A DNA stretch of 20,258 nucleotides, from IMG/VR virus record IMGVR_UViG_3300042446_000754, positions 1 to 20,258 of that record; one strand, 5' to 3'. Made by a program: the position numbers and the translations under genes. Below are positions 12,879-19,491 of this stretch, in pieces. The stretch's first letter is position 1. The number at the start of each line of letters is the position of its first letter. Origin of the DNA: a virus. The notes below the pieces were generated by a model. That model worked only from the letters and a program-made list of their open reading frames with translations, had not been told where the DNA came from and ran no database searches.

Positions 12879-14789
12879 ATGCTTAACTCAGAGTTTCTTA
12901 GCGCCGCTTATGGGCGGTTGCGGGACACCTATGGCTGGACGACTAGTTTTGCATCTGATCCTAATCAGAGCGAGCCTACCGTCTGGTCTGGCAACCCGTA
13001 CATGGATACGCCCGCGCACCGATCCTTAATTGATCGGCGGATTGGCGACAACAATTTCTTTTGCGTTTCCGTTATGGAGGCACCGGACAAGAAAAAGCGG
13101 TCCAAAGACTTCTTTTGCCGCATGGCCGTTCTGCTAGCAGATGACGCTAGCCCAGATGACCTGTTTGGAACGCCATCGTATATCTTTGAAACCTCACCTG
13201 GAAATTACCAGATTGGGATATTTCTAGATCGCGACGATCCAGACACCGCCAATAGGCCGCTGCTAGATGCGGTCTTGCAGGTTATGGCCGCTAGTAAGCT
13301 TATCAATGCCGACTCTAGCGGTAATAACGTAGTGCGCTACGGTCGATTGCCCGTAGGCTACAACACCAAACAGCGCGAAAGCGGATCATTCCAAACCAAA
13401 ATTATCTATTACAAAACAAACGCCACATATAACCTAGCGGATGCGGTCGCCACGTTTGGGCTTGACCTAGAAGAAATCCGCCAAAACATAAACACTGCCC
13501 CCACAAAAACACAAAACCTAAACAATTCAACAGGCACAGCAGTTGACCTGTACAGAAACCTAATCAATCCAAACCTAGAAGAACGATCCTACCACGACCC
13601 GCTCATGAAGCTTTCGGCGGCAATGGTTGCGGCAGGTATGGCACCTGGTGCGGTAGTGAATAACCTTCGCTCGCTTATGCTGGCAATTCAACCCGAATCA
13701 ACGGGTGAAGAATTTGCCCGCTGGGAATCTCGCTACGGCTCCGAATTATCGCGCATGGTATCATCAGCCGAAAAATACGCTCCTGCCCGTCAGGAAGCGT
13801 TGCAGGGCGACGTATTCGTATCTGAAGAACAGTTAGAGGAGATGACAAAGAATGTTCGCTGGCTAGTTAAGGGCCTTGTGCCCGAGGATAGCATGGGGAT
13901 GATCTTTGGTGCGTCAGGGACGTACAAATCCTTTATCGCGATTGATATGGCCCTGCATATCGCGCACGGCATGGATTGGGCAGGTCTTAGGACCAAGCAA
14001 GGCCCGGTTGCCTATATCGCAGCAGAAGGTGGGGCAGGGATATCTAGGCGTTTGAAAGCCTGGCGCAATCAGTTTGGGCTAATCGAAACAAACAACCTGC
14101 ATATTTGCATCACGCCCTTTCTTTTAACGGCGCAAGATGAAATGGCGCATTTGAAAGCGGCCATTGCCAAGTTCCCCCAACGGCCTAGCGTGGTGATCAT
14201 CGACACCCTGTCCCAGACATTCAGCGGAGATGAGAACTCATCTAGTGATATTGGGACGTATCTCAGAATGATCAACAGCGAGATCAGGGCGGCGTTTAAT
14301 TGCACGGTTATCGTCATTCACCATACAGGCCATAGTGCGGCAGAGCGTCCTCGTGGTTCATCCGCCATTACCGCTAACTTGGACTTTATCTTAGGCGTGT
14401 TTAAGCCCGATCCAGAGGCGTCGCGGGCCAAGGTGGGCGTCCATAAGATGAAGGACGGCGACAAGGTAGACGACCTGTTTTTCAATATGACCCGGCTTGT
14501 GTTGGGCGAGGATAGCGACGGGGACGAAATATCGTCATTGGTCGCGGCGCATGATGAGGCTGGCGGCGGGCCTAAGTCGTTCAAGGCCAGCAAATATGAT
14601 TCGATGATTCTTAAAATGATGCCTGACAAGCGCCAGGTTACGGAAAAAGATATTCGGGACGAGGCTGGCAAGGGGTCAAACGAAACCGACCGGACAATTT
14701 ACCAAGGGGTAAAACGTTCCCTTGATAAGTTGCACCGGGCCGGAATGATTCGTAGCTTTGGGATAGGAGTATGGGGGCGGGTTGATTAA
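12879..14789 (+). CDS. Bifunctional RepB-type primase and RepA-like helicase
   Basis: This is a 636-residue protein. The N-terminal 200 residues resemble RepB-type primases: an acidic pair in VLLADDASPDD (D88, D89) and the FETSPGNYQIGIF segment (about 103-115). The central domain is a RecA-fold hexameric helicase. Its Walker A is GASGTYKS (344-351), a variant with Tyr before the Lys. Its Walker B is VVIIDTLSQ (D442), followed by IVIHHTGHS and RGSSAITANLD. The C-terminal 60 residues look like a winged helix (ITEKDIRDE-type, VTEKDIRDEAGKGSNETDRT). It probably primes and unwinds phage DNA at the origin and may recruit the host polymerase, as no DNA polymerase is seen here. It follows the regulator by seven bases. 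Its 3' end overlaps the convergent gcrA-like gene by four bases. Confidence 0.85.
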   Translation: MLNSEFLSAAYGRLRDTYGWTTSFASDPNQSEPTVWSGNPYMDTPAHRSLIDRRIGDNNFFCVSVMEAPDKKKRSKDFFCRMAVLLADDASPDDLFGTPSYIFETSPGNYQIGIFLDRDDPDTANRPLLDAVLQVMAASKLINADSSGNNVVRYGRLPVGYNTKQRESGSFQTKIIYYKTNATYNLADAVATFGLDLEEIRQNINTAPTKTQNLNNSTGTAVDLYRNLINPNLEERSYHDPLMKLSAAMVAAGMAPGAVVNNLRSLMLAIQPESTGEEFARWESRYGSELSRMVSSAEKYAPARQEALQGDVFVSEEQLEEMTKNVRWLVKGLVPEDSMGMIFGASGTYKSFIAIDMALHIAHGMDWAGLRTKQGPVAYIAAEGGAGISRRLKAWRNQFGLIETNNLHICITPFLLTAQDEMAHLKAAIAKFPQRPSVVIIDTLSQTFSGDENSSSDIGTYLRMINSEIRAAFNCTVIVIHHTGHSAAERPRGSSAITANLDFILGVFKPDPEASRAKVGVHKMKDGDKVDDLFFNMTRLVLGEDSDGDEISSLVAAHDEAGGGPKSFKASKYDSMILKMMPDKRQVTEKDIRDEAGKGSNETDRTIYQGVKRSLDKLHRAGMIRSFGIGVWGRVD

Positions 14790-15337
14790 CCCGCCTTCGT
14801 GGCCCTGCCTTGGTTGACTTTCCACATAACGCCCCGGTTAAGCGATAGATTTTTACGCTTGTAATCAGCCGGGGTCAGGTCGCTATAGCAAAGTTTTTTG
14901 TGGTGAGCGCAATAAGCCGACCCTTCGATTTTTGTGTCACCGCACATGATGGCCTGATCCATATCACCAGAGGGAAGGCTATCCGCAATGTATCTACAGC
15001 CATTTGGTCTGATCCTTATTAAGGTGGCCGAGTGCTGGCCGCGTGGTTCTGAACTAACAAACAATGCAACAACCTCCTGTTTAGAGATAGGCTTGGGCTT
15101 GATAGCTTGGGCCTTTGGTGCTTTCCACAACTTAACCTTTGGCTTCACAAAGGCGGGCTTATAAACCCTGTTTATTGTATTGATAGCGCCTTGCTTTTTC
15201 ATCCGATGAAGTTTGCCGCAAATCATGTTGCGGGTGGGCGCACCGATGAGTTTTGATATTTCAAGGGCGCTGTGGCCCTCTTGGTACAACCTGACCATTT
15301 GGTCAGTTCGCTCTTGCGTCCAAAAATCGTCTGTCAT
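14786..15337 (-). CDS. gcrA: GcrA-like cell-cycle regulator
   Basis: This 183-residue protein begins with the GcrA HTH: FWTQERTDQMVRLYQEG, SALEISKLIGAPTRNMICGK and LHRMKKQGAI. A basic Pro/Lys linker follows. The C-terminal domain has CRYIADSLPSGDMDQAIMCG and GSAYCAHHKKLCY, matching the sigma70-binding GcrA C-terminus. In Alphaproteobacteria GcrA works with RNA polymerase at promoters with GANTC sites methylated by CcrM. A phage copy could redirect host cell-cycle genes or switch phage promoters. Copies are known in some Caulobacter phages. It is the last gene of the leftward mini-gene operon and overlaps the preceding gene by ATGA. GGAG precedes the ATG. The linker is longer than I would expect for a minimal GcrA. 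Confidence 0.85.
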   Translation of the reverse strand: MTDDFWTQERTDQMVRLYQEGHSALEISKLIGAPTRNMICGKLHRMKKQGAINTINRVYKPAFVKPKVKLWKAPKAQAIKPKPISKQEVVALFVSSEPRGQHSATLIRIRPNGCRYIADSLPSGDMDQAIMCGDTKIEGSAYCAHHKKLCYSDLTPADYKRKNLSLNRGVMWKVNQGRATKAG

Positions 15338-18343: not shown

Positions 18344-18386
18344 GGTGTGTGTCCTTGTGTGAGTGGTTGCGTTGCTGTTGTCCCCA

Positions 18387-18415
18387 TTAGTAGGGAGCGC
18401 TTGCGTTGGTGTCAA
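18387..18415 (-). promoter_or_regulatory. Sigma70-type promoter for the leftward mini-gene operon
   Basis: On the minus strand TTGACA (18410-18415) is a perfect -35 box. A 17-base spacer leads to TACTAA (18387-18392) as -10, or ACTAAT one base later. The first gene starts at 18343, about 40 bases downstream. The spacer contains AGCGCT, a small palindrome that could hold a regulator. This is the best promoter I see in the window. Confidence 0.65.
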
Positions 18416-18527
18416 TCAAATAATGTAAGATTTTTTCAATGGCAAGAAATATGAGAGAGTTGTCATGTTTTTAGGAGGGATTAGTAGCATTTCGCGCACA
18501 AAAACGGCCGCAAAAACCATCATGATT

Positions 18528-18686
18528 TGCTTCACAACCTCTGATGAAAGTGAAGCACGCCTTGCACGCTATGGCTGGGCTATCTGATCCTACCGATCCT
18601 AAATGTAGCATTTTGTAGCAGGTTTTGAAGCATTTCCATGATTGCTTCACTTCCCTCAGGGGGTACTTGTACCCCTGAGTGAAGCA
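18528..18686. repeat. Array of TGCTTCAC / GTGAAGCA elements
   Basis: Exact 8-bp copies occur at 18528-18535 and 18643-18650 (TGCTTCAC) and at 18550-18557 and 18679-18686 (GTGAAGCA). A seven-base match (TGAAGCA) is at 18626-18632. The exact copies form two inverted pairs with 14- and 28-base spacers. Related TGTAGCA copies lie at 18604-18610 and 18614-18620, with AGTAGCA near 18483. The density is far above chance for 200 bases. Confidence 0.8.
18654..18678. repeat. Strong hairpin nested between the outer repeat pair
   Basis: CTCAGGGGGTAC (18655-18666) pairs with GTACCCCTGAG (18669-18679), with a two-base loop and a single unpaired G. The outer TGCTTCAC and GTGAAGCA elements flank it and can extend the stem after a five-base bulge on one side. 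It is not followed by a T run, so it is a poor intrinsic terminator. A cruciform or protein-binding site is more likely. Confidence 0.7.
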
Positions 18687-18710
18687 CACGGCGGCTTGTT
18701 TTGAGGTATG

Positions 18711-18738
18711 AAAAAGCCCCAGGTTTGACGCTGGGGCT
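18711..18738 (-). terminator. Intrinsic terminator behind the small minus-strand gene
   Basis: Read on the minus strand, AGCCCCAG and CTGGGGCT form a perfect 8-bp stem around an 8-base loop (18715-18738), followed by TTTTT (18711-18715). It lies six bases past the stop of the gene at 18745-18978. It would insulate that gene from the repeat region and the operon further left. Confidence 0.9.
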
Positions 18739-18744
18739 GGGGGA

Positions 18745-18978
18745 TTATGCCGGGGTGATCCAGAAACGTATAAAGTCTCCCTCGCGCCTCTGTATCATTT
18801 TAAGCCCTCGGCTATTGGCTATCTTGTTTAGGTGCGCCCAGCCTCCTCGGCTATTAGGCTTTCTCATGGGCAACAATAAGCTTTCGCCCTCCTTTAGCGA
18901 TAGCAAGGCTTTAGTTTCAGGGTTCTGTCTGCGGCCTACCCCGATAGGAGGCATGGCGTGTCCGGTTTGTATTTCCAT
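18745..18978 (-). CDS. Small basic hypothetical protein with its own terminator
   Basis: This 77-residue protein starts at ATG 18978, with AGGGAA eight to nine bases upstream. It begins MEIQTGHAMPPIGVGRRQNP and continues LSLKEGESLLLPMRKPNS, LNKIANSRGLKMIQRREGDF and IRFWITPA. The pattern (gly/basic N-terminus, then a helix followed by two strands) suggests a small winged-helix or nucleic-acid-binding fold, but no family is recognised. TATAAA at 19011-19016 on the minus strand is a candidate -10 box. An intrinsic terminator follows, so it is a single-gene unit and may be an early regulator. Confidence 0.65.
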   Translation of the reverse strand: MEIQTGHAMPPIGVGRRQNPETKALLSLKEGESLLLPMRKPNSRGGWAHLNKIANSRGLKMIQRREGDFIRFWITPA

Positions 18979-19238
18979 TATATAGGTTCCCTATGGTGCA
19001 CCATTGCACATTTATAGACATACAGGAAAACATTAGACACACAATAGACCTAAGCCACTCACCCCCCAGCATACCCATGCGCCCATAAAACATGGGGGCC
19101 GCGATGTATCATGGCTACCCGCCTGCCCCTATCGCCGAGGCCTCACGTTGACGCGTGACGGGCGAGAGCGTGGCCATTGGCATATGGGCATAGCATGAGG
19201 CGCGAAGCCGTGGCGCGTGACCATGCGACCAGGTGCCT

Positions 19239-19284
19239 GTTATGTTATAACGTAACACCCCACCCGGCATCGAACCCGGTGGGG
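19239..19284. repeat. Palindrome plus adjacent GC hairpin
   Basis: GTTATGTTATAACGTAAC (19239-19256) is an 18-bp palindrome with one mismatched pair. Immediately after it, CCCCACCCGG (19258-19267) pairs with CCGGTGGGG (19276-19284) around an eight-base loop, with one bulged C. On the minus strand the loop reads GTTCGATG, like a tRNA T loop. The two dyads abut, which suggests one composite protein site. Confidence 0.75.
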
Positions 19285-19289
19285 GGGGG
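19281..19289 (+). repeat. Run of nine G
   Basis: Nine consecutive G follow the hairpin arm. The run is non-coding, so length changes would not shift a frame, but they would alter the hairpin and spacing. It is also a place where the assembly could be wrong. Confidence 0.9.
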
Positions 19290-19339
19290 TCGTGTATGTA
19301 CATAGGTCACCCGTACAAATGGGACGCAAAAAACGGTTC

Positions 19340-19367
19340 TTGCTTTTCCGTAATAAATATATATATA
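19340..19367 (+). promoter_or_regulatory. Candidate late promoter for the packaging genes
   Basis: TTGCTT (19340-19345), a 16-base spacer and TATATA (19362-19367) give a plausible sigma70-type promoter reading toward the terminase genes. The match is moderate (three of six and four of six). The surrounding AT-rich tract stands out from the GC-rich region before it. Confidence 0.4.
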
Positions 19368-19395
19368 CGCACCTGTGTGGTGGTCTCCTCAACTA

Positions 19396-19436
19396 GGGGT
19401 CGGGCGTCGAGTTGATCTCCGTCCGGCCCCGCTTTT
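19396..19436 (+). terminator. Leader hairpin before the terminase genes, attenuator-like
   Basis: GGGGTCGGGC (19396-19405) pairs with GTCCGGCCCC (19421-19430) as RNA, with two G-U pairs and a 15-base loop. GCTTTTG follows. This resembles an intrinsic terminator with a short T run, but it lies between the candidate promoter and the first packaging gene. It may be an attenuator, an anti-termination site or part of a packaging signal. Confidence 0.45.
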
Positions 19437-19491
19437 GTTGACATAGACGATGCCAAGCCTTATTCTTGCAAAATCATCAGAAAGGGCCACC

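Follow-up and report, generated by a model that had tools for sequence, protein, structure and literature searches.

A putative iteron origin in an uncultured phage, with the winged helix of its primase-helicase as the probable reader

We describe a dense array of short repeats in IMG/VR record IMGVR_UViG_3300042446_000754, an uncultured bacterial virus, whose 20,258 bases were analysed at full length and are called the window here. Judged from comparative sequence analysis, this array is probably an iteron replication origin that is read by the winged helix of the phage's own primase-helicase. Our proposal rests on the array and its hairpin, an architecture that is kept among relatives while the repeat word changes, the domains of the primase-helicase, and the way substitutions concentrate in its recognition helix. 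The individual pieces are already known from other replicons; their combination and the fast co-switching by few residues look new.

The repeat array and its hairpin

The region contains the following features (evidence in parentheses).

18386..18415, minus strand: candidate leftward early-operon promoter, weak (TTGACA, 17 nt, TACTAA; read from the sequence)
18494..18530, plus strand: conserved left box GCGCAC..AAAAACGGCCGCAAAAACCATCATGATTTGC, putative origin edge (sister contigs)
18528..18535, minus strand: putative iteron GTGAAGCA (TGCTTCAC on the plus strand), left arm of the first inverted pair (8-mer count and shuffles)
18550..18557, plus strand: putative iteron GTGAAGCA, right arm of the first inverted pair (8-mer count and shuffles)
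18581..18631, plus strand: tandem ~10-bp units TATCTGATCC / TACCGATCC / TAAATGTAGC / ATTTTGTAGC / AGGTTTTGAAGC (register read from the sequence)
18643..18686, plus strand: bulged hairpin, candidate priming hairpin (DNA fold)

A sequence-only reading of this DNA had noted four exact 8-bp copies and one seven-base copy lying close together, and this clustering is confirmed. The span 18528-18686 takes in every exact TGCTTCAC/GTGAAGCA site, four in all, together with the seven-base copy, TGAAGCA at 18626. The frequency check that had been suggested places TGCTTCAC at 18528 (+), 18550 (-), 18643 (+) and 18679 (-), with no further copy in the 20,258-base window (0.69 expected). Neither an 8-mer with four copies per 170 bp (maximum 3) nor a 7-mer with five copies (maximum 4) arose in 200 first-order shuffles. 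For the relaxed unit TG[AT][AT][GC]C, 18484-18700 contains nine copies where 1.2 would be expected, compared with at most five elsewhere.

The same reading had listed TGTAGCA variants, a GATCCTA direct repeat and a hairpin as items of their own. All are present (TGTAGCA at 18604 and 18614, GATCCTA at 18586-18592 and 18595-18601) but they mostly belong to one array of roughly 10-bp tandem units, with ends TGATCC, TGTAGC or TGAAGC, plus the hairpin. The unit consensus in the window is TG-WW-SC, and the tandem pitch of about one helical turn is combined with inverted pairs, the first of which (18528/18550) gives an 8-bp stem on folding (z -2.8). The register of the units in 18581..18631 agrees with decamers repeated in tandem at the corresponding position of the contigs L007, L008, L012, L053, and L059. 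A 72-aa reverse ORF over the array (18471-18689) lacks support, the stretch not being kept as a frame in relatives.

The tandem array is closed by the hairpin at 18643-18686 (-13.7 kcal/mol, z -4.5, matched by no shuffle), which is built from a basal stem TGCTTCAC/GTGAAGCA, a 5-nt bulge, and an apical stem around GGGGTAC-TT-GTACCCC, its base thus being an inverted unit pair. Hairpins also adjoin the arrays of relatives (z -1.7 to -5.5), where a GTA loop is common, albeit not universal. The idea that the bulge always sits on the 5' arm was dropped, as this is not universal among relatives.

Signals around the array

The array is located upstream of the leftward operon, at a distance of 70-300 bp; the candidate promoter of this operon was not returned by a consensus promoter scan. 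A second, imperfect palindrome (18450-18466) is found between the array and this promoter. It varies among sister phages (L006 3110-3130; L007 2015-2032; L009 1250-1268), with examples such as GTGACTGATTAGTCAG and GGTAGCCGGTTACC, is accompanied by TGACGGGCGTCA in L006, L007, L008, L010, and L012, and is likely the operator of a varying regulator. On the other side, the 77-aa gene (18715-18978) carries its own terminator-like site and occurs in the sister phage G001, not in G002 or G004, as a self-contained insert beside the putative origin. Further on, the gene-free stretch 19090-19440 is about 87-89% conserved in sisters and holds a strong GC-rich hairpin (CCCACCCGG..CCCGGTGGGG); possible roles are in packaging or in late control.

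No DnaA boxes, IHF sites, or GANTC sites were found near the array. The proposed GC-skew check proved uninformative, with no consistent turn at the array in the window and seven contigs.

Same layout, other word

Sister phages were gathered by terminase and primase searches. In relatives with 45-98% identity in the primase-helicase, an element of repeats plus hairpin is likewise present between the early and the terminase module, with repeat words such as TGAGCG, TGGGTG, TGGGCG, TGGGACG, GACCGA, and others. A look at related phages, also suggested beforehand, gave a twofold answer: beside conserved flanks in G001, G002, and G004 the 8-mer itself is missing, but an equivalent array with another word is present in each.

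Among closer relatives, the left box is kept in L006, L007, L008, L009, L010, and L012, and the DNA to its right diverges. At the equivalent site, L007 and L010 keep TGCTTCAC and TGTGATCC-type units, L006 and L008 carry TATGTGAGCG / TAAGTGAGCG, and L009 and L012 carry TATGTGGGTG / AAAGTGGGTG with GTACG or GTCCG. The local word is also found in the base of the hairpin, and this last difference, between L009 and L012, is present in unit and stem alike. More distant phages show the same layout with ATGTCCG and TGGGCG (L053), TGGGCG (L052, L054), TGGGACG (L059/L058/L061), GACCGA (L013), GCGTGACA (L077/L079), or ACGCGCC (L072). The arrays of L051 and L014 are weaker, and with 3-4 copies the word definitions are weak in L012, L014, and L051. 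In 16 contigs, representing ten recognition-helix types, array and hairpin accompany a primase-helicase gene, mostly at a distance of 3-6 kb.

Outside this family, the array DNA was unmatched in plasmid records (protein matches fell mostly in the helicase region), and the new matches from a conserved-box scan of viral contigs were unrelated sequence. A pattern search for spaced AATGTCCG returned nothing, even in L053, and was too strict. In G008, G023, and G028 the two contig ends are identical over 115-127 bp, which suggests that these assemblies, of about 36.7-39.9 kb, are circular and complete.

A strong hairpin of changing sequence, in an element that adjoins the terminase side of the genome, might also be a structured RNA, attenuator, or packaging signal instead of a DNA origin. 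We consider this highly improbable: Rfam (like tRNA) searches gave no match, an RNA stem would have no use for direct tandem units at ~10-bp pitch, the word TGAGCG is present five or six times in G002 and G004, and a terminator-like site (18715-18738) lies between the element and the 77-aa gene.

The primase-helicase

The proposed initiator is encoded on the same record.

12879..14789, plus strand: primase-helicase, 636 aa, proposed initiator (Pfam and profile match)
14592..14786, plus strand: winged-helix domain, residues 572-636 (AlphaFold model, PDB wHTH matches)

This protein combines a RepB-type primase, an RSF1010 RepA-type helicase, and a C-terminal winged helix. The Pfam match to RepB_primase (PF16793) is marginal (24.4 against a cut-off of 24.3); D88, D89, and D145 are invariant, with the spacing of the catalytic D77, D78, and D134 of RepB' (PMC4434180). 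The helicase region matches Pfam AAA_25 (E 1e-38) and, in a profile search, RSF1010 RepA (1g8y, E 8.6e-7). Residues 520-636 were modelled by AlphaFold as a winged helix (pLDDT 76-88 across the domain) whose recognition helix spans about 604-620, whereas the full-length model is poor (pLDDT 49). Many winged-helix structures in the PDB match this domain (Z about 8-9), a match of fold, not function. In a genome-contig search, one Phenylobacterium MAG was seen to encode a relative of the primase-helicase with an unrelated C-terminus.

Which protein reads the repeats

Comparison of near-identical phages points to the winged helix. The primase-helicases of the window and G001 are 98.2% identical over residues 1-570, and their repeat words differ. 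Of 636 positions, 16 differ between the two proteins, and five of these changes (R605Q, T606A, I607T, Q609K, V611I) fall in the 20-residue recognition-helix stretch from 600 (p=6.4e-5). Substitutions are enriched in this stretch between G001 and G002/G004 too (p=0.0014), while the helix contrast of the window with G002/G004, taken by itself, falls short of significance (p about 0.11). G002 and G004 have both the helix and the word TGAGCG in common.

Over the 16 contigs, an enriched 6-mer is common to none of 112 pairs with differing helices and to six of eight pairs with identical helices, the latter being mostly close relatives in which common descent accounts for much of the word sharing. 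The exceptions pair G024 with G023 and with G025: G024 has the helix of both, yet its dominant word is ATGTCCG and only two TGGGCG decamers are common; it also differs from them at a wing residue. The repeat word thus tends to change together with the recognition helix in these sequences, a link that comprises few independent contrasts, with motif words and 6-mer test picked after the sequences had been seen. Two contig pairs from shared samples (L045/L010 and L044/L007) resemble split genomes, and helix and word agree in both; their pairing is unproven and they were left out of these counts.

The sequence-only reading had offered an origin or a master operator. The former, with the primase-helicase as its user, is well supported by the comparison; the latter fared worse. 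Operators for a regulator of the leftward early promoter (the Cro-like HTH, GcrA-like, HNH/HTH, or 77-aa protein) would suit the position of the array upstream of that operon, inverted pairs suit dimers, and a Cro-like HTH is encoded. However, G001, with its different word, has Cro-like, GcrA-like, and 77-aa proteins of 98-99% identity to those of the window, which are therefore unlikely readers, and G002 and G004 keep the array without the 77-aa gene. Hairpin and long tandem decamers are moreover atypical of operators, and the separate palindrome closer to the promoter would make a more plausible operator, so that we regard an operator array as distinctly unlikely. The GcrA-family cell-cycle regulator itself (14786-15337, minus strand; Pfam E 2.3e-18) is consistent with an alphaproteobacterial host.

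It is also unlikely that the array is an origin read by some other phage or host protein, the helix changes being incidental. The few independent contrasts leave room for such a reader, and three small early genes (57, 67, and 95 aa) are without counterpart in sister phages. In sisters with an array, however, these genes are missing altogether and not altered, and the clustering of substitutions in the helix recurs between G001 and G002/G004.

Comparison with known replication systems

Iterons in the RSF1010/IncQ oriV are about 20 bp long, a length that the variable phage units, at ~10-bp pitch, do not reach. Like the phage element, this oriV combines iterons with hairpins as priming sites (PMC4434180, PMC4234260), a role that the phage hairpin would share; one main hairpin was found in the phage, whereas RSF1010 has the ssiA/ssiB pair, which its primase recognises. 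In RSF1010, RepC is the iteron binder; unwinding by RepA exposes the hairpins, next to which RepB' starts priming (PMC4234260). The phage has a RepA-type helicase (the 1g8y match) and a RepB'-type primase with matching Asp spacing, but carries primase, helicase, and a putatively DNA-binding winged helix in one protein, which thus appears to join the activities of RepC, RepA, and RepB'. A separate RepC-like iteron-binding protein was not recognised among the window proteins scanned (a subset of the ORFs, the window being a fragment).

Closer in that respect is the alpha protein of satellite phage P4, a single primase-helicase with a DNA-binding function on origin repeats (PMC4234260), as proposed for the phage protein. 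The P4 primase is of the Toprim type, whereas the phage domain is of the RepB_primase type. P4 also has a second repeat site, crr, and nothing comparable was seen in the phage. P4 alpha-type replicons read their repeats with a C-terminal winged helix; in the phage protein the fold of such a domain is supported by the model and the PDB matches, and covariation suggests that it may read the repeats.

ORF904 of pRN1 likewise unites an archaeo-eukaryotic primase, a helicase, and a C-terminal winged helix, and the pRN1 origin stem-loop is conserved in shape and not in sequence, as is the phage hairpin (PMC4234260). pRN1 differs in having an SF3 helicase and no iterons, where the phage has a RecA-like RepA/AAA_25 helicase. 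Covariation of initiator and origin is known from RepA of PLE (Vibrio cholerae phage satellites), whose DNA-binding domain covaries with the ori repeats, as swaps have shown experimentally (PMC8263062), and the C-terminal domain of SaPI Rep acts on iterons (PMC7581432). PLE, however, swaps whole N-terminal domains, whereas the phage changes few helix residues in an otherwise 98% identical protein.

Proposed mechanism and perspective

In the origin model, the C-terminal winged helix would bind the ~10-bp units, both tandem and in inverted pairs, and so gather the primase-helicase on the array. The RepA-type helicase ring would then be loaded and the DNA opened, presenting the hairpin as a single strand, beside which the RepB-type primase domain would prime, much like RSF1010 does with three separate proteins. 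Binding, helicase loading, hairpin priming, and origin activity itself are all proposed steps.

More tentatively, these phages may repeatedly re-code their origin, with a few helix residues and all repeats, including the hairpin base, switching within near-identical genomes; we find this conceivable without favouring it outright. If true, such re-coding would make mutually exclusive replication groups, and the pressure behind it would perhaps come from origin-directed nucleases or satellites, by analogy with the PLE/Odn case.

For this uncultured phage group, the proposal provides a defined, testable origin and initiator, in which the initiation activities of RSF1010 are apparently united in one phage protein. 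It also offers natural near-identical pairs whose origin specificity may depend on a handful of helix residues, and both the recognition code and the cause of rapid origin switching are open to direct testing.
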